Shown piece after piece: positions 1,213-21,781 of a DNA stretch of 47,564 nucleotides; position 1 is the stretch's first letter; every line of letters starts with the position of its first letter. This DNA is from an uncultured Alphaproteobacteria bacterium. Lineage in GTDB: Bacteria > Pseudomonadota > Alphaproteobacteria > HIMB59 > GCA-002718135. Made by a program: the position numbers and the translations under genes. The notes under the pieces are model-generated. The model did not search any database. It saw only the letters and a list, made by a program, of their open reading frames with translations, and was not told the DNA's origin. The DNA lies in NCBI GenBank assembly GCA_902518985.1, contig CABYIF010000007.1:1-47564 (forward strand), given 5' to 3'.

Positions 1213-1213
1213 A

Positions 1214-2188: not shown

Positions 2189-2189
2189 A

Positions 2190-2954: not shown

Positions 2955-2965
2955 ACTTTTTAAAT

Positions 2966-5405: not shown

Positions 5406-5408
5406 TTT

Positions 5409-5594
5409 TTATCCTTTCCAAATAACATAAATTATCCATAAAATGCCAATCCCAATTGAGATGTTTATAGATGCAAATTGCTCAACAAAGCGCATCCAAA
5501 TGAGTTGTAGAGCTACAAAACTGATTACTCCAATAAACAATCTATCAAACCAATTTGTTTTTATTGGAAGAAAGCCTCTAGAATTTTTTTTCAT
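5409..5594 (-). CDS. small membrane protein within ABC polyol operon
   Basis: This is a protein of about 61 residues with no recognised function. The ATG at 5594 (MKKNSRGFLPIKTNWFDR) is preferred over a TTG at 5615 because an AAGGGA ribosome-binding-like sequence precedes it. The stop of the upstream permease also falls just before it. A basic N-terminus leads into two hydrophobic segments, about residues 18-36 and 42-58, ending in WKG. It lies between the permease and the dehydrogenase, in the place where many such operons carry the ATPase gene. It could be an accessory subunit of the importer; small membrane proteins (for example DUF2160) accompany some alphaproteobacterial polyol/glycerol importers. 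Membership in that family is not established here. Confidence 0.7.
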   Translation of the reverse strand: MKKNSRGFLPIKTNWFDRLFIGVISFVALQLIWMRFVEQFASINISIGIGILWIIYVIWKG

Positions 5595-5595
5595 A

Positions 5596-6450
5596 TTATC
5601 CCTTAACTGCTCCAAATGTTAATCCTGAAACAATATATTTCTGGACAAGCGCCAGAAAAATAAGAGCAGGTAACATTGAAACAACTGCTACTGCAGCCAT
5701 TGTTCCCCACTCAGTGCCAGTAGTTGTTACAAACTCTGAAAGTCCAGTAGGAATAGTTCTTGCATAAACACTAGTAAGTGTAGCTGCTAAAAGATATTCA
5801 TTCCAAGCAAATAAAAAACTTAGCAAAGCAGTTACTGCAATGCCAGGAGCAGCTAATGGAACAATTAATTTAGATATAATTGTAAATAAATTTGCTCCAT
5901 CAACAATCATAGCTTCATCTAAGTCTTTTGGGATACCATCAAATATACCTTTTAATAACCAGATAGCAAAAGGCAGATTAAATACACAATATAAAAGTAT
6001 TAATCCAATTTTTGTATCAAATAAATTACTATCTCCATATTTAAATACAAGTGTAAATAGAAGAAATAGGGGTAACATAAAAGCTGCAGGTGGAGCCATT
6101 CTATTAGTCATAGTCCAAAAGAAAATTGTTTCTGCTGCAGCAATCTTGTATCTTGATAATGCATAAGTTGCCATAATGGCGAGCACAGTTACAAGCAAAG
6201 CATTTGATGTTGCAATAATTATTGAGTTCATTAGATAATCACCAAATACTCCATCAACAAAAGGTCTTGTATAATTTTTCCAATGAATTTTTTCTAAAAA
6301 AGTAGGATAAAGATTTGGTTTTCCATATAATTGAACGGGTGTCCTTGTAGATACTAATATCATCCAATAAATTGGAAACAGTGTTATAATTGTGAACAAG
6401 CTCCATATTACAACAGAGAAAGTTTTATAAAGTACTTTATTCATCTTCAT
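5596..6450 (-). CDS. carbohydrate/polyol ABC transporter permease (MalG/SmoG type)
   Basis: This 284-residue inner-membrane permease has six hydrophobic segments, the first at residues 8-30. An EAA loop ([18 protein letters not shown]) lies near residue 185 and the family-typical C-terminus is [10 protein letters not shown]. Two in-frame ATGs lie close together at 6450 and 6444; either is plausible. The gene overlaps the upstream permease by 14 bases. With that gene and the binding protein it forms the transmembrane part of an importer whose ATPase is not in the operon. Downstream polyol dehydrogenases suggest a sugar alcohol substrate (inference). Confidence 0.92.
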
Positions 6451-7321
6451 TTGCTTTACCTCTTGAAACCATTACTGAATATAAGATCCAACAAATAACT
6501 ATAGTTATATATAAATACAATACAGACATTGCAGAACCATACCCATAAGTTCTTTTTTCAAATACTTCTTTCCAAATATGTATTCCTGTAAAACGAGTTG
6601 AATAACCAGGACCTCCCGCAGTTAACATCCAAACCTCGTCAACAATCTTAAGTGAATCCATCATTCTTATAAAAATAACAACTATTAAAACTGGTACTAA
6701 CATTGGAATAGTAATGTAAATAAAAATTTGAAAATTATTAGCTCCATCAATTTTTGCTGACTCATAAGGATCTTGTGGTAGGGCACTTAAACCTGCCAAC
6801 AAGGTTAAAGTAACAAAAGGAGTCCAATGCCAGACATCCATTACAACAATTGTCCAAAAAGCCTGAGCCTCTGAACTCATATAATTTAACTTAAATCCAA
6901 ATAATTCTTTTGCTAGAAAAGGGATTGGTCCTAAGCCTTGAACCAAAAAAAGTTTAAATATAGCACCAACTACTATAGGTGCGATTACTAAAGGAAGTGT
7001 ATGCACACTTCTAAAAAAAGCTTTTAAAGGAAAAGAACTTAGTAAAGATAACGCCAGTAAAAAACCAAGGGTGAGTTCTAAAGCCAAAGTTACAATTGCG
7101 AATCTAATTGATCTCCAAACAGAATCTATAAAAAATTTATCAAAAACTAATTCTCTATAATTATAGCCAAAGTTAATAAATTCCATTTCCTTATTTTTAC
7201 CAAGGGGCATCCAATTAAAAAAACCAACATAAAGAACGTAAAGAAATGGAAGTAACCCAACAATAATTAATATAACAATTGTAGGAGATAATAATAACCA
7301 AGCTGTTTTTGATGAATTCAT
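6437..7321 (-). CDS. sugar/polyol ABC transporter permease (MalF/SmoF type)
   Basis: This 294-residue permease has its first membrane helix at residues 7-31 ([19 protein letters not shown]), a motif universal in MalF/UgpA permeases. The segment [16 protein letters not shown] and the EAA loop ([15 protein letters not shown]) follow. A characteristic [19 protein letters not shown] block near residue 230 confirms the family. It is separated from the binding-protein gene by 52 bases that contain a strong hairpin, and it overlaps the next permease by 14 bases. It heterodimerises with that permease (family knowledge). Confidence 0.92.
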
Positions 7322-7334
7322 AATTATTATTTAA

Positions 7335-7359
7335 AGGAAGGCATACATGATGCCTTCCT
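7335..7359 (-). terminator. intra-operon hairpin after binding-protein gene
   Basis: A perfect 9-bp inverted repeat (AGGAAGGCA / TGCCTTCCT, 10 bp counting a closing T-A) encloses a 5-7 base loop. It lies between the binding-protein stop and the permease start. Only a short T/A-rich run follows on the minus strand. This fits partial termination or 3'-end protection of the binding-protein message, giving more binding protein than permease, rather than a full stop. Confidence 0.75.
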
Positions 7360-7373
7360 AAAAAATTAAAATA

Positions 7374-8795
7374 TTAGTTTTGATATCCTAAGTCTTTCAT
7401 AACTTTATCAAGAGCTTCACAAGCTCCATCTAATGCATCTGAAGGAGACATTTCACCTGCTAATGCAGCATATGTGAAAGGATCGATCGCAGCTCTACCA
7501 GCAGCGTGGAAAGGGTACATTGGTGCACCAGCATATAAATAGCCAGTGTTTTGCATCAATGTGAAATATCCATCAGCAATCTGATCCATAGCAGCAACTT
7601 TTGGATCATCATAAGTAGAGTAGTGTGTAATACGTGCACCAGCTACAGCCCAATCTGCTTGAACTTCACTCTGTGCTATATATTGTAACCACAACAAAGT
7701 TGCTTCTTTGTTTTTAGATGAATGCGGAATACCGTATGCACCTCCATCAAAGTAACCGATATAACCTTCACCGGCAGCAGCTTGTGTCATAACTCCTGGA
7801 GCGGTTGGCGGTTGCATAACACCAACATTACCAACAACTACTGATTTTTCTTCATTAGAAGCAATCCATGCAGCATTCTCTCCGTAAACCCAACCTTGTG
7901 CAGCTCTTCCTGCAGCAAATGTTGAAGCTACTTCACTCCATGTACTTTGTAGTGATTCTGGTGGTGCAAATTCTAGCATTGAAGTCCAGAAAGTTAGAGC
8001 AGCTTTTGCTCTAGCACCATTTAATGATCCACCACCTTCTACGCAAGAATGGAAATCATCAGTTACACCCCAGTTATATAAACCAAAAGATGGTCCAATT
8101 GATTCTAGGAATTCATAAGTTGAAGCTGGGTGTCCAGTGTGACCTTGAACAGTTGTACCCCAACATTCCATACCTTTTTCTGCACAGTATCCTGTGAAGA
8201 ATTCAGCATTATCTCTCCATTGTGCAAAAGAAGTAGCAGGAGCAAGAGGGTAACCATATTTTTTTTGGAAACCTGATTTAGCATCAGCCGCTCCAAATAG
8301 GTCTTTCCTATATAAGTATACTTTTACAAATGCTTCCATTGGCATACCAAAAACATCACCGCTTCCATCTTTAAAATAATCAATGAAAGTAGTGAAATCA
8401 TCCATATTAACCATTGGAGCTACAAGTTCCGGCTGATCTTTTAGTGATTGAGTAATGTTTACTAAAAAATCTCTGTCTAAGTAAGAATAAACTATATCTT
8501 GTTCAATATATACAAAGTCATAAATACCAGAATTTGCTTCCATATCTTTAATTGCTTTGTCATACATTTGATCCCAAGATGTATTTTCTAATTGTACTTT
8601 GATGCCTGTTAGTTTCTCAAAATCTTTAGCTAATACTTCTCCAGCAAATTGGCCAGGAGGTGTATTTTCGGCAACTCCTTGAATTACAGTACCTGCATAA
8701 GGAGCTCCAGCTTTTTTCCACCATTCAGCGTGACCGTCAGCCATTGCTGAGAATGAAAAAGTTGAAACTAGAAGGGCAATTAATAATTTTTTCAT
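7374..8795 (-). CDS. periplasmic substrate-binding protein of sugar/polyol ABC importer (SmoE-like)
   Basis: This 473-residue extracellular solute-binding protein (family 1-like) captures the sugar or polyol in the periplasm and delivers it to the two permeases encoded downstream. A clear signal peptide covers residues 1-19 ([19 protein letters not shown], cleaved before DGHAEWW). The mature protein is rich in Trp, Tyr and Gly, as usual for carbohydrate binders, and has four cysteines. A strong ribosome-binding site (AGGAGG) precedes the ATG. Base use is less AT-biased than in neighbours, suggesting high expression. It is the first gene of the minus-strand operon, transcribed from the 167-base divergent region at 8796-8962. 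Substrate assignment to a polyol rests on the downstream dehydrogenases. Confidence 0.9.
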
Positions 8796-8962
8796 ATTTC
8801 CTCCTATTATGAATAGTTAAAAACCTATGTTTTAAACAAATTTACATTATTCAGATTAACTTTTAATTCAACTACTTTTTAAATCTTTTTTTGTCATTAA
8901 ATTGTTGTTTTTTTTGTTAATTTTAGAGATATTATTTATAATAAATCAATATTGGGGGAATC

Positions 8963-9727
8963 ATGATTTTAGAACGATTCAAAGTTACTAATAAGGTTGC
9001 AATTGTCACAGGGGGTACTAGAGGAATTGGTTTGGCTATAGCGCATGCTCTGGGTGAAGCTGGAGCAAAACTCGTTGTTACAAGCAGAACAGATAAATTT
9101 GGTGGATTAAAAAGTTTAAAAGAGGCCGGCTATGATGTATCTTTTTTAGAAAGTGATATGCACGATAAGTCTGTTCCTCAACAAATAATAGATTTTACTT
9201 TAGAAAAACATGGGAGGATTGATATTCTCGTAAATAATGCTGGTGTTGCTCAACATGGTGAGATGGAAGAATATAATGATCAACTATTAGATAATATCAT
9301 GAATATAAATGTTGATTCAGTTTTTCGCATGTGTAGGTCAGTAATAACACCAATGAAAAAACAAGGGGAAGGCGTAATACTTAATATTGGTTCAATATCT
9401 GGTTTAGTTTCAAATATACCTCAGCCTCAAGTTGCATATAATGCTTCGAAAGCGGCAGTTCACATGATGACAAAAAGTTTAGCTAGTGATTTTGCTGATC
9501 AGAATATTAGAGTTAATGCATTAGCTCCTGGATATTTTAGAACTGAAATGACTAATCTTCCAAAGGAACATGAACACTGGTATCCTACATGGGATAAGCT
9601 TACTCCATTGAACAGAATGGCTGAGACAGAAGAAATTGGAGCTGCAGCTTTGTTCCTTTGTAGTCCTGCTTCAAGTTATGTCACAGGCGAAGTTTTAGTT
9701 ATTGATGGCGGCTATACAACTAGATAA
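8963..9727 (+). CDS. SDR-family oxidoreductase, probable NADP-preferring paralogue
   Basis: This 254-residue classical SDR has the cofactor motif TGGTRGIG, NNAG, a catalytic Ser and the AYNASK Tyr-Lys pair. Strand beta-2 ends in Ser-Arg (VVTSRTDK), which in this family usually means NADP(H), in contrast to the Asp in its paralogue at 2190-2954. Both proteins have the same length, start (MIL-x-x-FK) and C-terminal block (SSYVTGEVLV-x-DGGYT-x-R). The ATG is preceded by GGGGGAA as ribosome-binding site. The gene diverges from the binding-protein operon and is followed after 3 bases by a GMC oxidoreductase, so the two probably act on successive steps of one substrate (inference). Confidence 0.9.
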   Translation: MILERFKVTNKVAIVTGGTRGIGLAIAHALGEAGAKLVVTSRTDKFGGLKSLKEAGYDVSFLESDMHDKSVPQQIIDFTLEKHGRIDILVNNAGVAQHGEMEEYNDQLLDNIMNINVDSVFRMCRSVITPMKKQGEGVILNIGSISGLVSNIPQPQVAYNASKAAVHMMTKSLASDFADQNIRVNALAPGYFRTEMTNLPKEHEHWYPTWDKLTPLNRMAETEEIGAAALFLCSPASSYVTGEVLVIDGGYTTR

Positions 9728-9730
9728 ATT

Positions 9731-11359
9731 GTGGCAGAAATATCAGAATATATAGTTGTAGGTGGAGGTGCTTCAGGATGCGCAGTAACATCACAACTAT
9801 TAAAAAAAAATAAGAAAGTAACATTATTTGAAGCAGGTCATAATAATAAAAATTTTTTAATTGATTGGCCCGCTGGTTTTTTTAAATTTATAAATAAATC
9901 TAAATTTGCTACATACCATAAAACAAAACCCCAAAAGCATTTATTTGATAGAGAAAATATCGTTCCCCAAGGAAATGTATTAGGAGGTGGAACTTCTATA
10001 AATGCTCAAGTTTATATGAGAGGTAGAGCAGAAGATTATGATGAGTGGAATGATATTCTAAGTATTAATAATAATAAAGCAGATTGGGATTGGGAGACCT
10101 TATTACCTTATTTTAGAAATATGGAAACTAATGGTACATTTAATAATAAGCACCATAGTCAAGAAGGTCCACTTAAAGTATCTCATTGTAAATACATAAA
10201 TGAATTAACTCATGATTTTGTTAATTCTGTAGCATCACTTGGTTTGGAAATTGTTGATGATTTTAATGGTGACAATCCTCAAAATGGTGTTGGTTATTAT
10301 CAATTTATGAATAGCAATGGTCAAAGAAGTTCAGCAGCTAATGCTTACATCGACCCTGAAAGAAATAATCCAAATTTAAAGCTAAAACTTAATTCAGGTG
10401 TGAAAAAATTAATAATTGAAAATAACAAAGTAATAGGCGTAGAATATATTGATCGTACTGGAGAGCATAAAAACTATTTTGCAGAAAAAGAGGTTATTTT
10501 AGCGCCAGGATCATTCATCACTCCCAAGCTTTTAATGTTATCAGGGATAGGTGATGAAAAAGAACTTTCGGAACATAATATAAAGTGTGTGCATCATCTT
10601 CCTGGAGTAGGAAAAAACTTGATGGATCATCCTGAGTGTCCTCTTATAGCAAGAGCAAATGGGAAATATGGTTATTATAAACAGGGTGAGGGTTGGCGAA
10701 TGATTAAAAATGGAATTGAATTTTTAATCCGAGGCACAGGACTTGTAAACTCTGTCGGAGTTGAAGCTGGAGCATTTGTAAATCCATTAAATCGAAATGA
10801 CTTATCTTACATACAGGCATTTTTTGTACCAAGCATTTATATGAATGCTGACACCATTGGTGTTATTGAACCTGATTACGGAATGTCTATTACAACTGTA
10901 ATGACAAAACCTAAGTCGAGAGGTTATGTAAAACTTAGATCTTCTAACTATGAAGATCCACCTGAAATAAGTCTAAATTTATTAAAACATGAAGATGATT
11001 TAAAAATGATGGTAGCTGGTCAAAAATTTTTCATGGAGTCACTTAAACAAGGACCTTTATCAAATAAAGTAAAAGAAATAATATTACCCAATCAAAAAGA
11101 TTTAGATGATAAAAAAATTGAAGAACATTGTAAAAGATTTGTGAGAACAAACTATCATCCAGCTGGAACTGCAAAAATGGGAGCTGACAATGATCACATG
11201 GCAGTACTTAATTCTAAATTACAAGTAAGAGGTCTAGATAATCTAAGAGTGTGTGATATGTCAGCAATGCCAATAATTAATTCTGGTAATACATCAGCTC
11301 CTGCAATGATGCTGGGATTAAGATGCGGTGATTTTTTAAATGATAATAATATTAATTAA
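9731..11359 (+). CDS. GMC-family FAD oxidoreductase (choline dehydrogenase-like)
   Basis: This 542-residue glucose-methanol-choline flavoprotein starts at GTG three bases after the SDR stop. The FAD-binding motif is VVGGGASGCAVTSQLL at residues 8-23. The GMC signature GNVLGGGTSINAQVYMRG lies near residue 80, and the C-terminal active-site segments NYHPAGTAKMG (catalytic His) and NSGNTSAPAMMLG (second active-site position Asn) are present. No signal peptide is visible, so it should act in the cytoplasm or at the inner membrane. Such enzymes oxidise alcohol groups of polyols, sugars or choline. The setting between polyol and rhamnose genes suggests a sugar-derived alcohol. The last 8 bases overlap the convergent kinase gene. 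Confidence 0.9.
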   Translation: MAEISEYIVVGGGASGCAVTSQLLKKNKKVTLFEAGHNNKNFLIDWPAGFFKFINKSKFATYHKTKPQKHLFDRENIVPQGNVLGGGTSINAQVYMRGRAEDYDEWNDILSINNNKADWDWETLLPYFRNMETNGTFNNKHHSQEGPLKVSHCKYINELTHDFVNSVASLGLEIVDDFNGDNPQNGVGYYQFMNSNGQRSSAANAYIDPERNNPNLKLKLNSGVKKLIIENNKVIGVEYIDRTGEHKNYFAEKEVILAPGSFITPKLLMLSGIGDEKELSEHNIKCVHHLPGVGKNLMDHPECPLIARANGKYGYYKQGEGWRMIKNGIEFLIRGTGLVNSVGVEAGAFVNPLNRNDLSYIQAFFVPSIYMNADTIGVIEPDYGMSITTVMTKPKSRGYVKLRSSNYEDPPEISLNLLKHEDDLKMMVAGQKFFMESLKQGPLSNKVKEIILPNQKDLDDKKIEEHCKRFVRTNYHPAGTAKMGADNDHMAVLNSKLQVRGLDNLRVCDMSAMPIINSGNTSAPAMMLGLRCGDFLNDNNIN

Positions 11360-12707
11360 TTAGCTTTTTCTTTTTTATAGTTTTTAACCATATAGAATAG
11401 ATTGTATTGTAATTTATACCTTTTATTTTATTAATTTTAACCAAATTAATATTACTTTTCTTTTTAATATTAAATAACAAACTTGCACCCAAACTAGTTC
11501 CTATTTCTTTTTTATTTTTAAAAACATTTTGTTTATTTCTTAAAGTTGCAATAAGTCTCATTATATAATTATTTTTGGTTACAGGTCCATCTAACACTAT
11601 ATCAGATGAAGACTGCATATAATCAAGACAGAAATTTAATGTAAAAGCCATATAAATACAGATTAAAGAATATCTTTGATTATTTGTTAATTTAATTTTT
11701 TTTATTTTCTTATTAAGTTTAAATGGACCAGCTTTTGCAAAGCTAGGATAAATTAAATTATGAATTAAATCCTTTTCATTAATTTTTGCTGCTGATTTAT
11801 TATTTATTTTTAATAATTTACATAATATATCATGTTCTCTACCACCCATAAATCGCATTGTTGGTACATGATTGCCAAAAACATCAATATTACATAACAT
11901 ATCTAATTTAGGATTTAATTTTTTTAAATTAGTTTGTTGATTAAAGATTATGTACCAAGTTCCACTTGAAACTAAGGTAAAATTTTTAAGTTTAGAATTT
12001 TTAAAATACAAATATGAGGCATTGCTGTCATGTATGCCATTTAAAACACTGATTTTGCTATCATTAATTTTGAAATAACCAATACTTTTCCATGCTTCAT
12101 TTAGTTTGGGAAACTTATCTGAAATATTTAATTTTTTAACAAGTGAAGAATATTTGTTTTTATTGAAATCCCATAAAAAACTATGACAACCAATATAAGA
12201 TATTTCACTTGAGTAATTTCCAGAAAGTTTCCAAGATATATATTGAGGATAAGACAGAATATATTTAGTTTTTTTAATAACTTCAGGAAAAGTTCTACTA
12301 AGATAATAAATTTGTTGGCCAACGTTTAATCCAACTTCTAAATGAGGAGTCAAAGATGTTTTGAAACTCGGTGTTATTTTTTTAAAGTCATTTGCAAATT
12401 TATCATACTGGTATTCGTAATCAGTACTTGCAATAATTTCTTCATTATTATGATCTATCAATGCAACTGTTGCACCATGAGCTGTACAAACAAATTGAGA
12501 AAAATTGTATTTTAATGATAATTTATTTAAGTTTTTTATTAGCCAGTCAATAATTTTTATAGAGTCTAGGTATGTAATTTTATTTTTAAATTTCTTTAGT
12601 TTCTGCTTTGTTTTAAGCTCTTTAATTACTTTACCTTGTTGGTTTATTAAAACAAGTTTTACATTTGTTTTACCAATATCTAATATTACATTTATTTTTT
12701 TAATCAT
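11352..12707 (-). CDS. rhaK: FGGY-family carbohydrate kinase, probable rhamnulokinase
   Basis: This 451-residue sugar kinase is expected to phosphorylate L-rhamnulose with ATP to rhamnulose-1-phosphate. The N-terminal ATPase-fold motif is NVILDIGKTNVKLVLI at residues 6-21, and a second is LVSSGTWYIIF near residue 246. The FGGY C-terminal glycine-rich segment is diverged (IVLDGPVTKNNYI). The ATG overlaps the aldolase stop as ATGA, so the two are translationally coupled. The adjacent RhaD-type aldolase and RhaI-type isomerase make rhamnulose the likeliest substrate, but other FGGY substrates are possible. In Rhizobium leguminosarum the equivalent kinase is also needed for rhamnose transport. 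The gene is very AT-rich with lysine- and asparagine-rich insertions. Confidence 0.82.
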   Translation of the reverse strand: MIKKINVILDIGKTNVKLVLINQQGKVIKELKTKQKLKKFKNKITYLDSIKIIDWLIKNLNKLSLKYNFSQFVCTAHGATVALIDHNNEEIIASTDYEYQYDKFANDFKKITPSFKTSLTPHLEVGLNVGQQIYYLSRTFPEVIKKTKYILSYPQYISWKLSGNYSSEISYIGCHSFLWDFNKNKYSSLVKKLNISDKFPKLNEAWKSIGYFKINDSKISVLNGIHDSNASYLYFKNSKLKNFTLVSSGTWYIIFNQQTNLKKLNPKLDMLCNIDVFGNHVPTMRFMGGREHDILCKLLKINNKSAAKINEKDLIHNLIYPSFAKAGPFKLNKKIKKIKLTNNQRYSLICIYMAFTLNFCLDYMQSSSDIVLDGPVTKNNYIMRLIATLRNKQNVFKNKKEIGTSLGASLLFNIKKKSNINLVKINKIKGINYNTIYSIWLKTIKKKKLIN

Positions 12708-14791
12708 CTAGTGAAAGATGTGATGTTTCCTCCATCAATATTAATTATATTACCAGTTGATTTTTTGGATTTAGAACTTGCAAAAAAGTATATTCCCTCA
12801 GCAATATCTTCAGGTAAAACACTTACTTTTAATAAACTTCTATTCTTGTAAAATTCTTCAACTTTATTTATTGAAATTTTATTCCCAGCGGCACGTTGTT
12901 TCTTCCAATCACTGCTCCAAATCCTAGAGTTTTGTATTACTGCGTCAGGATTAATTATATTTGATCTAATTTTATATTCGGCACCTTCAAGTGCTATGGA
13001 TCTTGAAAGATGAAGCAATGAACTTTTAGCTACACTGTATGCAGATGCTCCTTTGGAAGCACTTAAGCTATTTTTACTTGATATGAAAATTATAGAGCCA
13101 CCCATATTTTGTTTCATCATTTGAGCATAAACTTCACGGCTAATTAAAAAACAACCTTTAGATAAAACAGCCATATTTTTATCCCACAATTTAGATGATG
13201 TATTCTCAAACGGAGCTGCTGATGCAAATCCTGCATTTGCAACCAAAATATCAATTCCACCGAAAGAATTTATACTTTCATCAACTGCTTTTTTAACTTC
13301 AATTTCATTAGTTACATCCATTACTATTGATTGAACAGCATCTCTTCCAAATTTATTTTGAAAGTTATCTTTAGTTTTTTCCAGTGCTTTTTTATCAATA
13401 TCAGTTAAGATAACACAACAACCTTCTTGTAAAAATTTTGTTGCTGTAGCAGATCCTATACCTCCGGCTGCACCAGTAATAAGTGCTACTTTCCCAGCTA
13501 ATTCTTTTTCCGGTGGCATTCTTTTTAACTTTGCTTCCTCAAGTTCCCAATACTCTATCCTAAATGCTTCTTTTTCTGTTAAACCAGTATATTTACTTAT
13601 TCCTTCTGCACCCTTCATAACATTAATTGCGTTACAAAAAAATTCACTTGAAATTCTAGCTGTCGATTTATTCTTAGCAAATGACATCATGCCATATTCG
13701 GGTATTAGAACAATAACAGGATAGGGATCTCTTAAATTAGGTGAATTTTTATTTTTATTTCTTTTATAATATTTTCCATAATCATCTTTGTATTTATTAA
13801 GATATCTTTCAATAATTTTATTTAGATCCTTTTCATTTTTCATCAGGTTAGTTAATGATGGAAGAACTAATGGTAATCTTTTAGTTCTCAAAAAATGATC
13901 AGGGCAAGATGTTCCAATATTAGATATTTTTTTCATATTTAGTGAATTTACAAACTCTAATGTTACTTTTGATTTGTCTAAATGCAAAATTTTGTAATTT
14001 TCTTTAGATAATTTTCCTCTTATGATTGAAATTAATTTACTTTCAAATTCACTAATCTGTTTTGTTTTATAAATTGGCTTACCAAATGAATATTTTTTAA
14101 TTGAATTATTTAAATAAATTTGTGCTTTTCTAATTATATCAATTGAATTTTTATAGCATAATTCACTTGTATCAGCCCATGTGAATAGACCATGGTGACC
14201 TAAAACAATTCCAATTATATCTTTATTTTTTTTTATTAAGTTTTCCATTTTAAGACCAAGATCAAATCCTGGACGTTGCCAGTTTAACCAGCCCAATTTA
14301 TTTTCATAAACTTTGTTTACAATATCTCTTCCATTTTTCATTGTTGCTAATGCAATTATTGAGTCGGGATGTGTATGATCAACTTCTGGAAATGGAACAT
14401 AAGCATGAAGAGGTGTATCTATACTAGCTGCTCTTGGGTTATTATTAAAAGTACACATAGGATAATAAGTAACCATTTCATCTTCAAAATTAAAGCCTCT
14501 ATAAACGTTCTTTAAATTATTTAACTTTTCCATATAAAGGCTTGCAAATCCATTTTCTTTAATTGATCCAAGGTCTCCACCAGAGCCCTTTACATAAAGT
14601 ATATTTTGATTTGATTTATTTATAGGATCTTTAAGGTTGATTTTAGAAGAGGTATTTCCACCACCGAAATTAGTTATTTTTAAATCTCTACCTAATAAAT
14701 TTGATCTGATAATTAATTGTTGAAGTTTGCTATATCTATTAAATTTTTTATTCCAATTATTTTTTATAGGTACTTGATATCTATTATTCAT
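12704..14791 (-). CDS. rhaD: bifunctional rhamnulose-1-phosphate aldolase / short-chain alcohol dehydrogenase
   Basis: This is a two-domain enzyme of about 695 residues. The N-terminal class II aldolase domain (to about residue 400) has the zinc-binding His-Thr-His-Pro-Asp near residues 139-143 and a later GHHGLFTWAD. It should split rhamnulose-1-phosphate into DHAP and L-lactaldehyde. The C-terminal SDR domain (from about residue 430) has TGAAGGIG, an acidic beta-2 end (ILTDIDKK, NAD type), NAG and an S...Y..K triad (AYSVAKSS), and should oxidise lactaldehyde. The ATG at 14791 (MNNRYQVPIKN) is preferred over a TTG at 14824 because it matches the usual start distance before the conserved SNLLG-x-DL-x-ITNFGGGN. 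No good ribosome-binding site precedes either. It diverges from the rhamnose transporter operon. Confidence 0.92.
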   Translation of the reverse strand: MNNRYQVPIKNNWNKKFNRYSKLQQLIIRSNLLGRDLKITNFGGGNTSSKINLKDPINKSNQNILYVKGSGGDLGSIKENGFASLYMEKLNNLKNVYRGFNFEDEMVTYYPMCTFNNNPRAASIDTPLHAYVPFPEVDHTHPDSIIALATMKNGRDIVNKVYENKLGWLNWQRPGFDLGLKMENLIKKNKDIIGIVLGHHGLFTWADTSELCYKNSIDIIRKAQIYLNNSIKKYSFGKPIYKTKQISEFESKLISIIRGKLSKENYKILHLDKSKVTLEFVNSLNMKKISNIGTSCPDHFLRTKRLPLVLPSLTNLMKNEKDLNKIIERYLNKYKDDYGKYYKRNKNKNSPNLRDPYPVIVLIPEYGMMSFAKNKSTARISSEFFCNAINVMKGAEGISKYTGLTEKEAFRIEYWELEEAKLKRMPPEKELAGKVALITGAAGGIGSATATKFLQEGCCVILTDIDKKALEKTKDNFQNKFGRDAVQSIVMDVTNEIEVKKAVDESINSFGGIDILVANAGFASAAPFENTSSKLWDKNMAVLSKGCFLISREVYAQMMKQNMGGSIIFISSKNSLSASKGASAYSVAKSSLLHLSRSIALEGAEYKIRSNIINPDAVIQNSRIWSSDWKKQRAAGNKISINKVEEFYKNRSLLKVSVLPEDIAEGIYFFASSKSKKSTGNIINIDGGNITSFTR

Positions 14792-14798
14792 AAATTTT

Positions 14799-14811
14799 GT
14801 TGTTAAACAAC
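14799..14811. promoter_or_regulatory. perfect palindrome upstream of rhaD, candidate operator
   Basis: The inverted repeat GTTGTT-A-AACAAC lies 8 bases upstream of the rhaD ATG, in the 125-base divergent region. Its position would let a bound regulator block the rhaD side. No matching regulator gene is nearby, so this is a candidate only. Confidence 0.4.
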
Positions 14812-14860
14812 GATTTATATTCAATTAGTTAAGATTGCAAAGTTAATTATATTTTTTCCT

Positions 14861-14916: not shown

Positions 14917-15903
14917 ATGAAAAAATTATTGTTAGTTTTATCTTCATTTCTGTTAATTTCTTTTAATGCATACGCAGACGATATGCGTATTGCACTTGTC
15001 GTAAAAGGCCTTGGTATTGGTTTCTTTGAAGCTGCTGCTGAAGGTGGAGAAGAAGCTGCTAAAGAAATTGGAGGTATTGAAGTAATTTATACTGGACCAG
15101 CAACAACTACTGCTGAGGCTCAAATTGAAGTAATAAATTCTTTAATTGCTCAAAAAGTTGATGCAATTGCTATTTCTGCAAACGATAGAGATGCGCTTGT
15201 GCCAATAGGGAAAAAAGCAATGCAAAGAGGAATTACTGTAATTTCTTGGGACTCTGGAATTGGCGAAGATGGAAGAGTAATGAATCTAGATCCATCTAAC
15301 ACTGCGTTAATTGGTTCTTCTAACATCAAATGGATGAAAAATTCTATGGGTGATGAAGGTGAATTCGCTATTTTAAGTGCAACAAGTCAAGCAACAAATC
15401 AAAATGCTTGGATTGAAGAAATGAAAAAAGAATTTGCTAAGCCAGAATATTCAAAAATGAAATGGGTTGATACAGTTTATGGCGATGACTTATTCGATAA
15501 AAGTTATCAAGAAGCTCTAGGTCTATTCAAAAAACATCCAAACTTAAAAGGCATTATAGCTCCAACTTCAGTTGGTATTGTTGCTGCAGCAAAAGCTGTA
15601 GAAGACCAAGGTTTGGTGGGCAAAGTCTTTGTTACTGGTCTTGGACTACCAAGTGAAATGAAGGCACATGTTAAAAATGGCTCCGCGATTCAATTTGGAA
15701 TTTGGAATCCTATTGATTTAGGATACTCAGCTGTTTACTTGTCACATCAAATAGCTAGTGGTGCATACAAAGGTCAAGAAGGCGAATGTATACCTACAGG
15801 TAGAATGGGTGAGATTTGCATAGGAGCAGGTAATTCTGCAGCTATGGCAGATCCATTTATATTTGATGCTTCAAATATCGATAAATTTGCAGAAATATTC
15901 TAA
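14917..15903 (+). CDS. rhaS: rhamnose ABC transporter substrate-binding protein
   Basis: This 328-residue periplasmic binding protein of the ribose/rhamnose (type 1 fold) class has a signal peptide at residues 1-20 (cleavage after NAYA). Family landmarks are the early GIGFFEAAAEGGEEAAKE segment, INSLIAQKVDAIAISANDRDAL, the sugar-stacking WDSG and the C-terminal FGIWNPIDLGYSAVY segment. These fit the RhaS group, consistent with the ATPase, permeases and RhaI encoded next to it. A strong AGGAGG ribosome-binding site precedes the ATG. A 13-bp hairpin follows the stop, giving the classic arrangement for over-producing the binding protein. Confidence 0.9.
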   Translation: MKKLLLVLSSFLLISFNAYADDMRIALVVKGLGIGFFEAAAEGGEEAAKEIGGIEVIYTGPATTTAEAQIEVINSLIAQKVDAIAISANDRDALVPIGKKAMQRGITVISWDSGIGEDGRVMNLDPSNTALIGSSNIKWMKNSMGDEGEFAILSATSQATNQNAWIEEMKKEFAKPEYSKMKWVDTVYGDDLFDKSYQEALGLFKKHPNLKGIIAPTSVGIVAAAKAVEDQGLVGKVFVTGLGLPSEMKAHVKNGSAIQFGIWNPIDLGYSAVYLSHQIASGAYKGQEGECIPTGRMGEICIGAGNSAAMADPFIFDASNIDKFAEIF

Positions 15904-15952: not shown

Positions 15953-17431
15953 ATGAAACTTGAGTTAAAAAATATTTCAAAATTCTTTCCAGGAATTAAA
16001 GCTCTTCAAAAAGTTAATTTTAAACTTAAGGAAAATAGTATTCATGCTCTTCTTGGAGAAAATGGAGCAGGAAAATCGACACTAGTTAAAATATTGTGTG
16101 GTGTCTATCAACCTGATGAAGGTCAAATATATTTAAATAATGTTGAACAAAAAATTACTAATCCAATAACCTCTTTATCTTTGGGCATATCAGCAATTCA
16201 TCAAGAGTCTGTAATGTTTGATGAATTAAGTGTTACCGAAAATATTTTTATAGGAAATCATATTGTAAAATCAAATAGTTTAGTTGACTGGCAAAAAATG
16301 GAAAAAAAAACTAAAGAACTTCTTGGAAATTTAGAAGCTGATATTAAACCTAATGAAAAAATTAAAGATCTTAGTATTGCTCAAAGACACATAGTGCAAA
16401 TATCAAGATCTTTAATCCATGATGCTGATATAGTTATTATGGATGAGCCAACCGCTTCACTTTCTCAAAAAGAAATAGATGAATTATACACAATAATTAG
16501 AAATTTAAAGAAACAGAACAAATCAATTATTTTTATATCTCACAAACTTGATGAGGTTATGGAAGTCTGCGATGAATTTACTGTATTAAGAGACGGAGAA
16601 TTTATTAATGCTGATTTAATTGCCAATACTAATAAAGATAAATTAGTAACATATATGGTAGGTAGAGAGATAGATCAGATTTTTCCTAAAAAACAAGTTA
16701 AAATCGAAAATGAAATTTTTAATGTAAATAATTTATATAAAAAAACACAGTTTAAAAATATTAGTTTTAATTTAAGAAAAAAAGAAATTCTTGGATTTTA
16801 TGGTCTCGTAGGTTCTGGAAGAACAGAAATAATGAAAACTATTTTTGGGATCAATAAATATGATGACGGCGAAGTTTTATTTAAAGGTAATAAATTGAAA
16901 ATTAATAAACCTAATGATGCAATTCAAAATGGTATAGTATATCTCTCTGAAGAAAGACAAAATTTAGGAATGACAGGATTGATGTCAGTCAAAGACAATA
17001 TTAACATGGCAATAATGGAAAAAAACTCTGATTATTTGATAATTAATCAATTACGTGAAATTAAAAATGCTGAAGAATTACAAGATAAACTAAATATTAA
17101 AGTATCTTATTGGAGTCAACTAGCCCAAAGTCTATCTGGAGGAAATCAACAAAAAACAGTTATAGCTAAATGGTTGTCTACTAAACCTGAAATACTAATA
17201 TTAGATGAACCTACTAAAGGAATAGATGTTAAATCTAAATCAGCAGTTCATGAATTTATGGGTGAGCTAGTTGATACAGGCATGTCTATAATAATGATTT
17301 CATCTGAATTAACAGAAATACTTGGAATGTGTGACCGAGTAGTTGTGATGTATAAAGGGTTAATTAAAAATATATTAGATGTCTCAAATACATCTTCAGA
17401 AGAAATTGTTAAGTTAGCTAGTGGAGAATAA
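15953..17431 (+). CDS. rhaT: rhamnose ABC transporter ATP-binding protein (double ATPase)
   Basis: This 492-residue tandem ATPase of the RbsA/MglA type energises rhamnose import on the cytoplasmic face. Half one has Walker A GENGAGKST at residues 35-43, a signature region LSIAQRHIVQISRSL and Walker B IVIMDEPTAS. Half two has the degenerate P-loop GLVGSGRTE, signature LSGGNQQKTVIAKWL and Walker B ILILDEPTKGID. Such asymmetry is normal in this family. The stop abuts the next permease start. The name follows the Rhizobium rhaSTPQ system and does not refer to the E. coli rhamnose-proton symporter RhaT. Confidence 0.92.
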   Translation: MKLELKNISKFFPGIKALQKVNFKLKENSIHALLGENGAGKSTLVKILCGVYQPDEGQIYLNNVEQKITNPITSLSLGISAIHQESVMFDELSVTENIFIGNHIVKSNSLVDWQKMEKKTKELLGNLEADIKPNEKIKDLSIAQRHIVQISRSLIHDADIVIMDEPTASLSQKEIDELYTIIRNLKKQNKSIIFISHKLDEVMEVCDEFTVLRDGEFINADLIANTNKDKLVTYMVGREIDQIFPKKQVKIENEIFNVNNLYKKTQFKNISFNLRKKEILGFYGLVGSGRTEIMKTIFGINKYDDGEVLFKGNKLKINKPNDAIQNGIVYLSEERQNLGMTGLMSVKDNINMAIMEKNSDYLIINQLREIKNAEELQDKLNIKVSYWSQLAQSLSGGNQQKTVIAKWLSTKPEILILDEPTKGIDVKSKSAVHEFMGELVDTGMSIIMISSELTEILGMCDRVVVMYKGLIKNILDVSNTSSEEIVKLASGE

Positions 17432-18400
17432 ATGATAAAAAAAATCATAACTAGTCGGGACTTTATCTTATTTGGAATAATAATTTTTGGAGTGGTTGTT
17501 GTAGGTATAGCAAATCCTTTTTTTGTTCAACCGTCTAGTTTGTCAGATGTTTTAACTGATACATCAATATTAATTATTTTAGCTTTAAGTCAAATGATAG
17601 TTATTTTAATAAGAGCAATCGATTTATCTGTAGCTTCAAATTTAGCTTTATCAGGAATGCTAATATCTTTATTATCAACAGTTTACCCTGAACTACCTGT
17701 TATTTTTTTTATAATACTTTCTTGTTCAATTGGAACTTTCTTAGGAGTCCTTAATGGAGTATCTATTGCTATTCTTAAAGTTCCTTTCATAGTTACTACT
17801 CTTGGCACACTGAGCATTTATAGAGGTTTAATTTATTTTGTAAGTGACGGGAAACAAGTTTATTCGTCAGAGTTTTCAGAGGATTTTCTTGCTTTAATTC
17901 ATTATAAATTTTTATCTTTATCCTTTTTATTTTGGATTGCAGTTGCTGTGTTTATATTAATGTATATTTTGTTAAATCATACAAAGTTTGGAAGAAATCT
18001 ATATTCACTTGGAGGAAATCCAGATGCCGCAAAATACATTGGAATAAACGAAAACAAATATATTATATTAGCTTACTCTTTATCTGGTTTTTTCGCTGGC
18101 TTATGTGGTTATTTATGGGTAGCAAGATACTCAGTTGCATCAACTCAAATAGCAATAGGATTTGAATTGACTGTTATTTCTGCATGTGTTGTTGGAGGGA
18201 TTAGTGTCATGGGTGGTGTCGGAACGGTTGTTGGTTGTACCTTAGGCGCCTTGTTAATAGGTTTTATCAGAAATGCATTACCTGCGGTTGACATATCTCA
18301 ATTTTGGCAATTGGCTATTTCTGGAGCTATAATATTGATAGCTATAATTATCAATACTAAGACTGAACAAAGAAAAGAAAAAACAATAATGGTAGAATGA
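17432..18400 (+). CDS. rhaP: rhamnose ABC transporter permease 1
   Basis: This 322-residue polytopic permease of the RbsC/AraH family starts immediately after the ATPase stop. It has about eight to ten hydrophobic segments, the conserved RAIDLSVASNLALSGM region and the cytoplasmic loop GRNLYSLGGNPDAAKYIGI that contacts the ATPase. The C-terminal GGISVMGGVGTVVGCTLGAL block is typical of the family. It overlaps the next permease by 4 bases (ATGA), so coupled translation and a heterodimeric channel are expected. Confidence 0.9.
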   Translation: MIKKIITSRDFILFGIIIFGVVVVGIANPFFVQPSSLSDVLTDTSILIILALSQMIVILIRAIDLSVASNLALSGMLISLLSTVYPELPVIFFIILSCSIGTFLGVLNGVSIAILKVPFIVTTLGTLSIYRGLIYFVSDGKQVYSSEFSEDFLALIHYKFLSLSFLFWIAVAVFILMYILLNHTKFGRNLYSLGGNPDAAKYIGINENKYIILAYSLSGFFAGLCGYLWVARYSVASTQIAIGFELTVISACVVGGISVMGGVGTVVGCTLGALLIGFIRNALPAVDISQFWQLAISGAIILIAIIINTKTEQRKEKTIMVE

Positions 18401-19383
18401 TGAAAAATATAATTCCAGAAAATCCACCATTTAAATTAATAAATATTCTATACAAAAAAGAATTTATTCTTTTTATGGTTTTCATCACCATAATTATTAT
18501 CAATTCAAATATTTCTCCTTATTTTTTAGATCTTTACAATCTTATTGATAGTACTTTCTTATTTAGTGAAAAGGCAATCATAGCCTTAAGTATGACCTTT
18601 GTGATTATCGCAAGGCAAATTGATTTATCAGTAGCTTCTATCATTGCTGTTTCATCATGTGTCTTGGGATATACGACAAGTGTTGGTTTCGATACTTATC
18701 TTGTTATTTCATTTACTTTAATTAGTGGAATATTATGTGGTGCTTTTAATGGATTTATAATAACGAGATTTGCAATTCCATCTATAATAGTCACAATAGG
18801 AACGATGTCATTATTTAGAGGTTTGGCTTACTCTTTTCTTGAAGACCAATATTATAACAAATTCCCAAAATTTGTAGTTTCATTAGGTAGTGATTATCTA
18901 TTTGGCTATATTCCGTATGCTTTTTTAACTTTTATAATTTTATCAATAATTTTTGCATTCATTTTGCATAGAACAATTATTGGAAAAAGAATTTTTTCAA
19001 TTGGTAATAACCCAGACTCAGCAGGATACACTGGAATAGATGTTGATAGATATACCTTTGTATTATTTACACTTAACGGTCTTTTCTCTGCTATTGCAGC
19101 AATATTTTTGTCTGGAAGACTGTCAAGTGTTCGACCAAACATAGCATTTGGTTGGGAACTTGAAATTATAACAATGGTTGTTTTAGGAGGAGTTTACATT
19201 TACGGTGGATCTGGCTCAATTCTTGGAGTAGTTATATCAATATTCATTTTAGGAATGCTCTCATTTGGTTTAGGATTACTGAATGTACCAGGGGTAGGTA
19301 TAATAATTTTTACAGGTTTATTATTAATATTAAGTATTGGTTTTCCATCATTCATTAAATATTTTAGGAGTAAAAATGAGTGA
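18397..19383 (+). CDS. rhaQ: rhamnose ABC transporter permease 2
   Basis: This 328-residue RbsC/AraH-type permease is the partner of the preceding one, to which it is clearly paralogous. It carries RQIDLSVASIIAVSSCVLG, the coupling loop GKRIFSIGNNPDSAGYTGID and the C-terminal GGVYIYGGSGSILGVV. Its last 8 bases overlap the ASRT-like gene. That junction contains AGGAG immediately before the next ATG, so the ASRT-like protein is made together with the transporter. Confidence 0.9.
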   Translation: MMKNIIPENPPFKLINILYKKEFILFMVFITIIIINSNISPYFLDLYNLIDSTFLFSEKAIIALSMTFVIIARQIDLSVASIIAVSSCVLGYTTSVGFDTYLVISFTLISGILCGAFNGFIITRFAIPSIIVTIGTMSLFRGLAYSFLEDQYYNKFPKFVVSLGSDYLFGYIPYAFLTFIILSIIFAFILHRTIIGKRIFSIGNNPDSAGYTGIDVDRYTFVLFTLNGLFSAIAAIFLSGRLSSVRPNIAFGWELEIITMVVLGGVYIYGGSGSILGVVISIFILGMLSFGLGLLNVPGVGIIIFTGLLLILSIGFPSFIKYFRSKNE

Positions 19384-19768
19384 AATAGGAAAAAAAATAT
19401 GGATATTTCCTGATGCCTACTTACCAGCTACTGGTAATCCTTATAAAACTTCATTTGGTGGAGATCAATATAGTCACGAATCTCTTTGTATAGTAAATTA
19501 TTCATTAACAAATGCAAATTTAGTAATTGATTTTCTTTATGAAGATGAAAAACCTATTGAAAATTATGAAACAATTATTGAAGCAAAAAAAAGTTTACAT
19601 TTAAGATTAGATAATATTACAGTTAAAGGCATGAACTTACCCAGAGAAAAACCATATTCTATAGTTTTAAAAAGTGATACAAAAATAGTTGCTCAATTAT
19701 CGCGATTAGATACAACTTCACAATATAATTCATTTATGACAGCAATGGGATGGGGGACTGATGTTTAA
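19376..19768 (+). CDS. ASRT-like small-molecule-binding protein (Anabaena sensory rhodopsin transducer family)
   Basis: This 130-residue soluble protein starts at the ATG at 19376, which has AGGAG five bases upstream. The frame's more upstream start is inside rhaQ. The whole length follows the ASRT family pattern: an N-terminal IGKKIWIFPDAYLPATGN, a central SHESLCIVN, a basic EAKKSLHLRLDNI strand, and a C-terminal LPREKPYSIVLKSD then VAQLSRLDTT. ASRT proteins are beta-sandwich domains. Comparative work proposed them to be sugar-type ligand sensors in organisms without rhodopsin (family knowledge). Here the gene lies between the rhamnose permease and isomerase, overlapping both. That is where Rhizobium carries the mutarotase rhaU. 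Role as sensor, sugar-handling protein or mutarotase substitute is inference. Confidence 0.85.
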   Translation: MSEIGKKIWIFPDAYLPATGNPYKTSFGGDQYSHESLCIVNYSLTNANLVIDFLYEDEKPIENYETIIEAKKSLHLRLDNITVKGMNLPREKPYSIVLKSDTKIVAQLSRLDTTSQYNSFMTAMGWGTDV

Positions 19769-21050
19769 GGCAGTAAATTTAGAAATAATAAACGCTGAAA
19801 ATGAAAAAATTAAAAACAATTTAAAATTTGATTATGAATATTTGCAAAAAAAATTAGAGAAGAAAAATATAAATATTAATGAAATTAAAGAAAAAATAAA
19901 AAATTTTCAAGTTGCATTACCAACTTGGGGTGTTGGAACTGGAGGAACAAGGTTTTCGCGCTTTCCAGGTATTGGTGAGCCACAAAATATTTATGAAAAA
20001 ATTGAAGACTGTGCTGTTATAAATGATTTAGCAGGTATAACACAAAAAGTCTCACCTCACTTTCCTTGGGATAACGTAAATGATTTTAAAGAATTAAAAG
20101 AATTTGCTGATAATTTTGGAATAGGTTTTGATGTTGTTAATTCTAATACTTTCCAAGATAATTCTAGAGATAATTTATCATTTAAATATGGAAGTCTAAC
20201 TAATTCTCAACAATCTATAAGAGAAAAAGCAATTCAAATAAATATAGAAGCTATTGAAAGTGGGAAAAAATTAGGATCAAAAGGATTAACAGTTTGGATT
20301 GGAGATGGTGGGAATTTTCCTGGCCAAATGAGTTTTTCAAATTCTTTAGATAGATATGTTGACTCTATGAAAAAAATTTATTCTTCATTACCTAAAGACT
20401 GGTTAGTATACTTAGAACACAAACCATATGAGCCAGCATTTTATTCAACTGTTATAAGTGATTGGGGTACAAGTTATATTTGTGCCCAAGAATTAGGTGA
20501 TCAGGCAATGTGTTTAGTAGATCTAGGTCATCACTTACCAAACACAAATATTGAAATGATTGTATCTCGTTTAATTGACTCAAAAAAACTTGGTGGTTTC
20601 CACTTTAATGACAGTAAATTTGGTGATGACGATTTAGATAGTGGTTCAATAAATCCATATGAACTTTTTTTGATTTTCAATGAATTAACTATAGCATCAA
20701 TTAAAGGAAAGATAAAAAATATAGCTTATATGATTGATCAATCTCACAATGTTACTGATCCAATTGAGAGTTTAATCTTGAGCGCAAATGAAATTGTATC
20801 AAATTATGCTAAATCACTATTAGTAAATTATGAGCAATTAGAGAGCTATCAAGACTCTAATGATCCAATTAAATGCATGCAAATATTAAAAGATGCTTTT
20901 AAAACAGATGTCAGTCCAATAATTGAGCAAGCAAGATTAGAAAATAATAATGCAATAGATCCCATATCTGTTTATAGATCTTTAAATTATAAAGAAAAAA
21001 AATCAAAAATAAGAAAATCTTCTCAAGGGAGTTCTTCTGGAATTGTATAA
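19761..21050 (+). CDS. rhaI: L-rhamnose isomerase (rhizobial/Pseudomonas type)
   Basis: This 429-residue TIM-barrel isomerase converts L-rhamnose to L-rhamnulose. The strongest signature is VALPTWGVGTGGTRFSRFPG near residues 50-70, followed by ITQKVSPHFPWD. Metal- and substrate-binding segments are VYLEHKPYEPAFYST (Glu, His), VDLGHHLPNTNIE (Asp, His) and GGFHFNDSKFGDDDLDSG. This is the RhaI type of Rhizobium and Pseudomonas, distinct from E. coli RhaA. The gene overlaps the ASRT-like gene by 8 bases and is followed after 2 bases by an SDR. It is the main evidence that this transporter and catabolic set handles rhamnose. Confidence 0.92.
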   Translation: MFKAVNLEIINAENEKIKNNLKFDYEYLQKKLEKKNININEIKEKIKNFQVALPTWGVGTGGTRFSRFPGIGEPQNIYEKIEDCAVINDLAGITQKVSPHFPWDNVNDFKELKEFADNFGIGFDVVNSNTFQDNSRDNLSFKYGSLTNSQQSIREKAIQINIEAIESGKKLGSKGLTVWIGDGGNFPGQMSFSNSLDRYVDSMKKIYSSLPKDWLVYLEHKPYEPAFYSTVISDWGTSYICAQELGDQAMCLVDLGHHLPNTNIEMIVSRLIDSKKLGGFHFNDSKFGDDDLDSGSINPYELFLIFNELTIASIKGKIKNIAYMIDQSHNVTDPIESLILSANEIVSNYAKSLLVNYEQLESYQDSNDPIKCMQILKDAFKTDVSPIIEQARLENNNAIDPISVYRSLNYKEKKSKIRKSSQGSSSGIV

Positions 21051-21052
21051 AT

Positions 21053-21781
21053 ATGAATTCTAAAAAGGTTATGCTTATAACTGGTGCTACATCAGGTATA
21101 GGCAAAGCTTTGGCAGATTTTTATTATAAGAAAAACTATAGATTGGTATTAACAGGAAGTTCACAAGAAAAAATTAACAAATTATCAAAAAAGTTTAAAA
21201 AAAATACACTTCTAGTGCAAGCAGATTTAACAAAATCTGAAGATATAAAAAAAATAGTAAACGAGACAATAAATAAATTTAAAAAAATAGATATACTAGT
21301 AGCTAATGCTGGTATGTATGAGCCTGATAAAATAATATCTGGAAATCCAGAAAGGTGGGAGAGGGTTATTAAAGTAAATGTGACAAGTGTTTTTAGATTA
21401 GTTAACCTAATATTACCTTATATGAAAAAAAACAACTTTGGAGATATTGCAATTACTAGTTCTATATCAGGTCATCAAGCAATTTACTGGGAACCTGTAT
21501 ATAGTGCCTCAAAACATGCCATTCAATCTTTTGCACATGGATTAAGGACTCAGGTATCTAAATATAATATAAGAATAATTTCTATTGCACCAGGTATGGT
21601 TATGACAGAATTATGGAATTTAGATCCAATTAAAAATAAAAAATACATAAATAATATGATTAGCAAAGGAAAGGCCTTAGATGTAAAAGATATTGTGGAA
21701 AGTTTTGAATTTGCTTTGTCGAGAAATAGAGGGGTAAATATAAGGGATCTTGTTATTCTCCCTACAAATCAAAATATTTAA
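21053..21781 (+). CDS. SDR-family oxidoreductase at end of rhamnose operon
   Basis: This 242-residue classical SDR has TGATSGIG at residues 11-18, ANAGM, a catalytic Ser (ITSSISG) and YSASK. Strand beta-2 ends LTGSSQEK with no acidic residue, so NADP(H) is likely. It is only 2 bases from rhaI. A rhamnose pathway of kinase plus RhaD does not need this enzyme. It may act on lactaldehyde, on rhamnose itself (as in rhamnose-1-dehydrogenase routes) or on another sugar. Sequence alone does not separate these options. Confidence 0.85.
   Translation: MNSKKVMLITGATSGIGKALADFYYKKNYRLVLTGSSQEKINKLSKKFKKNTLLVQADLTKSEDIKKIVNETINKFKKIDILVANAGMYEPDKIISGNPERWERVIKVNVTSVFRLVNLILPYMKKNNFGDIAITSSISGHQAIYWEPVYSASKHAIQSFAHGLRTQVSKYNIRIISIAPGMVMTELWNLDPIKNKKYINNMISKGKALDVKDIVESFEFALSRNRGVNIRDLVILPTNQNI

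Follow-up and report, generated by a model that had tools for sequence, protein, structure and literature searches.

Results

The rhamnose cluster and its ASRT gene

By the window we mean the whole stretch of DNA that was analysed, 47,564 nucleotides long, which is contig 7 of a 1.18 Mb assembly that is 69.6% complete and holds a single ASRT gene. The host order is taken to be HIMB59 (alias AEGEAN-169), marine Alphaproteobacteria, a group for which a rhamnose ABC transporter has already been published (PMC10308909). On the plus strand, genes for a rhamnose-binding protein, an ABC ATPase, two permeases, a protein of the ASRT family, L-rhamnose isomerase and a short-chain dehydrogenase follow one another, with an aldolase/dehydrogenase fusion and an FGGY kinase divergent from them:

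11352..12707, minus strand: rhaK-like FGGY kinase (PF21546, E 2e-42; PF00370, E 2.7e-12)
12704..14824, minus strand: rhamnulose-1-phosphate aldolase/dehydrogenase fusion, RhaD/RhaEW (NF006189, 946 bits; TIGR02632, 861 bits; both above cut-off)
14917..15903, plus strand: rhaS, rhamnose-binding protein (TIGR02637, 443 bits, above the cut-off of 342.25)
15953..17431, plus strand: rhaT-like ABC ATPase (from sequence and place; the counterparts in relatives form one cluster adjoining the permeases)
17432..18400, plus strand: rhaP-like permease (from the open reading frame and its position; the counterparts in relatives cluster with the second permease)
18397..19383, plus strand: rhaQ-like permease (PF02653, E 2.2e-37)
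19366..19370, plus strand: AGGAG, ribosome-binding-like site (from sequence)
19376..19768, plus strand: ASRT-family protein (PF07100; phmmer match to TM1070/1nc7; AlphaFold2 model)
19761..21050, plus strand: rhaI, L-rhamnose isomerase of the RhaI type (TIGR02629, 581.5 bits, E 8.6e-175)
21053..21781, plus strand: short-chain dehydrogenase directly 3' of rhaI (PF00106, E 8.1e-55)

A preliminary description of this DNA, made from its letters alone, had read these neighbours as a rhamnose operon, and read them correctly, with the qualification that RhaI, whose best model is the rhizobial TIGR02629, scores under the curated cut-off of 646.75. The short-chain dehydrogenase may be part of the operon; in most of the compared loci a different gene lies 3' of rhaI (two open reading frames of L070 are unnamed). 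Adjoining the cluster, positions 1-9727 of the window form a sugar/polyol island of ABC permeases, a binding protein and dehydrogenase-like genes, as judged from their translations, with a SorC-type sugar-binding regulator (PF04198) at 1214-2188.

The ASRT-family frame runs from an ATG at 19376 to a stop at 19768 and encodes 130 residues. AGGAG stands five bases ahead of this ATG, within the 3' end of rhaQ, and the frame overlaps rhaQ by 8 bp at its start and rhaI by 8 bp at its end; coordinates, frame, AGGAG and overlaps are all as first described, and the overlaps recur in relatives, so that the arrangement exceeds chance. The protein matches PF07100 at E 1.2e-33 (116 bits against a cut-off of 25) in a Pfam profile search, over residues 4-126 and profile positions 1-118 of 119, that is, over the full domain. 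PF07100 was its only Pfam match: PF05336, helix-turn-helix families and the DeoR sensor domain were not found, and NCBIfam gave no match. The family has been defined by an SHEshChhN signature, a tryptophan in strand 1 and an asparagine ending strand 2 (PMC2739507), and the window protein has SHESLCIVN at S33-N41, W9 in strand 1 and N41 at the end of strand 2. Among proteins of solved structure, phmmer found its closest matches in TM1070 of Thermotoga maritima (1NC7, E 8.3e-21) and in Anabaena ASRT (E 9.5e-14). A single-chain AlphaFold2 model (pLDDT 91.7) superimposes on 1nc7 with Z 18.9 and rmsd 1.4 over 116 aligned residues at 43% identity, and on Anabaena ASRT with Z 14.9; fold relatives beyond these two reach Z 5.8 at most among the matches listed and gave no functional lead. 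Thus the frame encodes an ASRT-family protein with the TM1070-like beta-sandwich fold.

Linkage of ASRT to rhaI

In a sample of 150 genomes of the HIMB59 order, PF07100 was found in 19 (18 above cut-off), strong RhaI (E <1e-150, weak RhaI-like matches at E 3e-12 or weaker being left out) also in 19, and both in 18. Conservation of the position of ASRT in relatives had been set beforehand as a check on the preliminary description, and in all 18 genomes with both genes ASRT lies directly upstream of rhaI; the outcome that would have contradicted the description did not arise. The association gives a Fisher p of 4.5e-21, which is only descriptive, given related genomes and adjacent genes. These counts include one genome (G366) in which the ASRT frame is interrupted and rhaP, rhaQ and the aldolase are in pieces; it was excluded from the alignments. 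The nineteenth ASRT genome (G295) has an ASRT fragment at a contig edge and no strong RhaI, with a PF05336 gene on another contig. The nineteenth RhaI genome (G313) carries an orphan rhaI (L049:10216-11505) and no ASRT; no rha-type transporter, kinase or aldolase lies beside this rhaI, no RhaD fusion was found in the assembly, and two PF05336 genes lie on other contigs. The genes on either side of the orphan are ones that also flank the cluster of the window, and by eye they resemble the sugar/polyol island described above.

Loci whose ASRT proteins are 57-72% identical to that of the window come mostly from uncultured Alphaproteobacteria, as single cells and metagenomes. The 8-bp overlap of rhaQ and ASRT is present in all 16 complete HIMB59 loci, and ASRT overlaps rhaI by 1-13 bp, with starts chosen by script, in all 18 complete alphaproteobacterial loci; these named loci and the order-sample genomes are largely the same assemblies, so that the loci are not independent. 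Altogether the pair is kept in 20 alphaproteobacterial genomes, 18 of them in two HIMB59 families and the others being G023 and G435, to which we return below. Neighbour clusters were built from the output of a simple ORF caller, which misses some genes, and one representative per named cluster was profile-tested. In two loci, L060 (750-1904) and L065 (734-1891), an FMN-dependent dehydrogenase follows the aldolase-kinase genes (PF01070, matched from the L060 copy) and possibly oxidises L-lactate made from L-lactaldehyde.

More widely, ASRT occurs in five of 398 genomes of a phylum sample, and at the four loci besides that of the window no rhaI was found within the fetched flank. In Sinorhizobium meliloti pSymB a second, weaker match to the ASRT profile (52 bits) lies in a longer frame (L028:7027-8013) about 0.65 kb behind the first ASRT gene. 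No ASRT relative in viral contigs was confirmed.

ASRT and the mutarotase family PF05336

What, then, usually stands between rhaQ and the rest of a rhamnose operon? The order rhaQ-rhaM-rhaK, with rhaM of the mutarotase family PF05336 (RhaM/RhaU), occurs in five alphaproteobacteria without ASRT (G015, G040, G070, G164, G262), and a Rhizobium plasmid locus has rhaQ, rhaM and a kinase in this order together with a DeoR regulator; on a Catenovulum plasmid rhaM stands elsewhere in the rha cluster. Hence, as had been proposed, ASRT takes the slot behind rhaQ that rhaM or rhaU occupies in these members of the class. The two proteins would have in common this slot and the proposed function; they differ in that their profiles are unrelated and the window protein has no PF05336 match.

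The family itself is common in the HIMB59 order, being found in 79 of the 150 genomes, and yet none of the 18 genomes with ASRT and RhaI has it at the rha locus, which agrees with the earlier remark that no mutarotase gene is in the window. In 15 of the 18 it is absent from the whole assembly, and the other three carry a copy on another contig. In one of these (G333) the neighbours of the copy are an amidohydrolase, an enolase-superfamily gene, a PfkB kinase and a KDPG-type aldolase, which we read as an L-fucose-type route; in G341 and G400 it adjoins another enolase-superfamily gene. None was found in the window's own assembly (G000), at its completeness of 69.6%.

Among 289 genomes of a class sample, RhaI at E 1e-80 or better is present in 12. 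Three of these have ASRT (G000, G259 and G023), none of them with PF05336, whereas PF05336 is present in 7 of the 9 without ASRT, among them the five with the order rhaQ-rhaM-rhaK; it is a fragment in a broken cluster in G154, and in G145 it lies 15 kb from the RhaI gene, with no rha gene in the fetched flank. Two genomes of one genus, G037 and G263, carry RhaI and lack both ASRT and PF05336; like G313, they show that RhaI may occur in a genome that has no ASRT. Of the two named controls with strong RhaI, T. maritima carries ASRT but lacks PF05336, while in Deinobacterium chartae it is PF05336 that is present and ASRT that is absent.

Pooling all RhaI genomes, PF05336 is present somewhere in 3 of 21 with ASRT versus 9 of 11 without (p 3e-4, for genomes that are not independent). 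When lineages are collapsed by hand the contrast is 0/4 versus 6/7 (p 0.015), where HIMB59 is one lineage scored 0 despite PF05336 elsewhere in 3 of its 18 genomes and the 7 are scored by PF05336 anywhere in the genome; counting copies at the locus only, 5 of these 7 lineages have it. An earlier, rougher collapse gave 0/4 versus 7/10 (p 0.07). By lineage, then, the contrast is suggestive rather than strong. Moreover, a PF05336-type gene lies within 5 kb of ASRT in 9 of 51 non-alphaproteobacterial loci, directly before it in L082, L083 and L120 (one of the 11 genes was profile-tested), so ASRT and PF05336 are not generally exclusive. With both genes in 3 of 18 HIMB59 genomes and both locally in these nine loci, we reject strict genome-wide exclusion. 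The proposal that ASRT replaces RhaU is plausible from the slot and from the absence of PF05336, with the reservation that the replacement is not strict outside the Alphaproteobacteria.

Two alphaproteobacterial loci beyond HIMB59

ASRT also stands directly before rhaI in two alphaproteobacterial loci outside the order: L071, from AG-464-G09 (G023), with the order rhaK-ASRT-rhaI (4306-12473), and L072, from a SAR11 (Pelagibacteraceae) single cell (G435), where rhaK faces an ASRT-rhaI pair (7788-14141). Within about 7 kb neither locus has a rha-type transporter or a RhaD fusion, and at E 1e-100 no RhaD fusion was found in the G435 assembly or in that of G023 (71% complete). Since these two lineages keep ASRT with rhaI and rhaK near no rha transporter, a role as a transport partner, which the preliminary description had offered, fits badly and is disfavoured. 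In the order of G435, RhaI at E 1e-60 was found in one of 247 genomes, G435 itself; given this rarity, the ASRT-rhaI pair was probably acquired together.

Both loci carry GT2 genes, which share about 40% identity, together with a common gene of 200 amino acids without a family and related nucleotidyltransferase-like genes; the one in L071 has two tandem domains and passes the Pfam cut-offs (PF00483, PF12804), and the one in L072 has weak matches only, below the cut-offs. L071 has GT4/GT1 and GT9 genes in addition. A biosynthetic use of RhaK, ASRT and RhaI in these two loci is thus a possibility.

What the two loci share with HIMB59 is rhaI, rhaK and ASRT, and this common set directs attention to the sugar on which isomerase and kinase act, and away from uptake and aldol cleavage. 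Such a set would also suit a protein that RhaI and RhaK need for some other step, enzymatic or stabilising, on L-rhamnose or on L-rhamnulose (the ketose, for instance); in addition, creatininase-like and M24-type genes accompany another branch of the family, so that the chemistry of ASRT may exceed anomer exchange. However, the phosphorylating rhamnose pathway has, to our knowledge, no missing step apart from mutarotation, and we consider a step of this other kind rather improbable.

The branch just mentioned is separate and mostly clostridial (L073-L124 except L075). It is accompanied by a creatininase-family gene in 25 loci, an M24/creatinase-like gene in 28 and AraC regulators in 19, besides a PF05336-type gene in the nine loci counted above, and together these form an uncharacterised gene set.

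Regulators and rhodopsins

Anabaena ASRT has been reported to bind and loop DNA (KD 1.7 uM) and to raise reporter expression in Escherichia coli (PMC8660804), and by analogy the window protein might regulate rha operons through DNA. Consistent with this, 19 of the 22 assemblies searched for the family, including that of the window, have no DeoR-type gene (PF00455). The three that do are G333, where a DeoR gene (PF00455 with PF08220) stands directly behind rhaI, G330, where it ends the aldolase-kinase gene row, and G366, where it is on another contig. In the first two, then, a DeoR gene belongs to the rha cluster of an ASRT genome, so a conventional regulator can be present together with ASRT; T. 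maritima, with its DeoR-type RhaR, is a further case (PMC3750489). Moreover, PF07100 was the only family found in the protein, with no helix-turn-helix family, and no common palindrome was evident by eye in the aligned rhaEW-rhaS intergenic regions of 15 loci. We therefore judge DNA-binding regulation by ASRT very improbable, and a role of ASRT as a stand-in for the transcription factor is disfavoured by two of the three PF00455 genomes.

The preliminary description had also stated that there is no rhodopsin. This holds for the open reading frames of the window; the genome does have one, its sole PF01036 match being on contig C8 and ASRT on C7, so that the linkage to a rhodopsin expected of ASRT in the strict sense is absent. 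PF01036 matches occur in 17 of 20 ASRT assemblies searched, and in the five relatives with both genes on one contig these are about 110 kb or more apart; in a control search T. maritima had ASRT and no rhodopsin match. With rhodopsins on other contigs or at least about 110 kb off, we reject a rhodopsin partner as the local role.

Conserved residues and phylogeny

Conservation was scored over 82 family members: 20 of the rhamnose type including TM1070, 51 mostly clostridial and 11 of the Anabaena type. TM1070 was assigned to the rhamnose set by choice rather than by any test, and close relatives make up many of the 82 rows. At least 95% of the members retain H34, E35, N41, R77, Q107 and R110, of which N41 has been described as structural (PMC2739507). 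C38 is not family-wide, being isoleucine in 96% of the 51 mostly clostridial members, and S73, H75, D79, P93 and S109 separate the rhamnose type and TM1070 from one or both of the other groups. A maximum-likelihood tree has one rhaI-linked clade (95/92) and one clade of mostly clostridial sequences (100/97). TM1070, on a long branch, is unplaced in this tree, also with respect to the rhaI-linked clade.

TM1070, the closest solved relative, is a tetramer whose pocket holds 1,2-ethanediol in two monomers, in contact with H25 and C29 (PMC2739507). The counterparts of these two residues in the window protein are H34 and C38.

These data bear on the protein-level sugar sensor of De Souza, Iyer and Aravind (2009), according to which ASRT would bind L-rhamnose and modulate an encoded protein, be it RhaI, RhaK or another, through contact rather than catalysis. 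The TM1070 tetramer pocket with its H25 and C29 contacts and the sugar-operon contexts (PMC2739507) agree with it, and ASRT adjoining rhaI suits a partner of RhaI. However, a sensor accounts neither for the position of ASRT in the slot of rhaM nor for the lack of rhaM at these loci. Moreover, the gene neighbours of the 82 members differ widely, and the polar invariants hold among them all the same; the retention of H34, E35, R77, Q107 and R110 in such different settings is as a shared reaction would require. A non-catalytic sensor is, we think, possible but somewhat unlikely.

Discussion

Of the readings considered, the likeliest is that the ASRT protein of the window is a non-homologous L-rhamnose mutarotase, unrelated to RhaM and RhaU; we hold this reading to be about evenly poised between right and wrong. 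How might such a protein work? RhaSTPQ would deliver L-rhamnose, and the ASRT beta-sandwich, in the cytoplasm, would serve the RhaI step: the sugar would bind in the pocket around H34 and C38, as deduced via H25 and C29 of TM1070, and ASRT would speed the exchange of its alpha and beta ring forms, so that RhaI would be given L-rhamnose in the ring form that it uses. On this account anomer exchange would be catalysed, rather than the sugar being bound alone. Should the mutarotase reading fail, ASRT would next be taken for a rhamnose-binding partner of RhaI. A dedicated anomerase that provides another enzyme with the form of a sugar that it can use has a precedent in YhcH, which differs in acting on N-acetylneuraminate and in being described as a metalloprotein (PMC8141875).

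The best comparison is offered by T. maritima. TM1070 and most HIMB59 proteins have SHESLCI, S-x-HLRLD, KPYSI and QLSRLD in common, and TM1070 likewise sits with a sugar isomerase, an aldolase and a kinase (PMC2739507), in a genome with RhaI and without PF05336. The differences are that T. maritima uses the transporter rtpEFGKL and the regulator RhaR (PMC3750489) and that a control search found no RhaD/ADH fusion in it. In support of the mutarotase reading, the T. maritima rha operon, which Rodionov et al. (2013, PMC3750489) write as rhaMADBC, shows 27-37-fold induction on rhamnose. Since the genome has no PF05336, the rhaM of this operon is most simply TM1070, and we infer that it probably is; the main text of that paper gives no locus tag. 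In this sense the idea that ASRT replaces RhaU is already partly in print. Anabaena ASRT (2II7-2IIA) shares family, fold and the signature with its H and C, and differs by its separate branch, its WAIAEG, TKHVRFN and QHTRLDSRQ motifs and its rhodopsin partner.

De Souza et al. (2009) had already described solo ASRT genes, in Thermotoga and elsewhere, that adjoin genes for a sugar isomerase, an aldolase and a kinase, and others next to monosaccharide ABC transporters; we saw no mention of rhamnose or of a mutarotase in their main text (PMC2739507). Within the collection of papers covered, full-text searches found nothing that links ASRT or TM1070 to rhamnose, or the rhodopsin transducer to a mutarotase. 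Thus ASRT beside sugar-isomerase operons (2009) and the T. maritima rhaMADBC operon (2013) were known, and what is new is the HIMB59 variant of that association. The interpretation given in the preliminary description is, on the whole, partly supported.

One may go further and suppose that ASRT proteins are further unrelated sugar mutarotases, or ketose-handling enzymes, each paired with one sugar enzyme. The trio of SAR11 and AG-464-G09 would then be non-catabolic and, with the nucleotidyltransferase and glycosyltransferases beside it, would produce an activated deoxy-ketose destined for a surface glycan, with L-rhamnulose 1-phosphate as one conceivable starting compound. We offer this extension as a speculation that is probably wrong as it stands.

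ASRT has widespread intracellular relatives, and the family owes its name to a single unusual member that partners a rhodopsin. HIMB59 provides a clean genetic setting in which ASRT occupies the position of a defined enzyme and accompanies rhaI, and it turns the vague idea of a sugar sensor into one specific activity, L-rhamnose mutarotation. If this is true, an unrelated mutarotase family would be added to those known, the T. maritima rha operon would be explained, and the question of which signal Anabaena ASRT senses would be re-opened.
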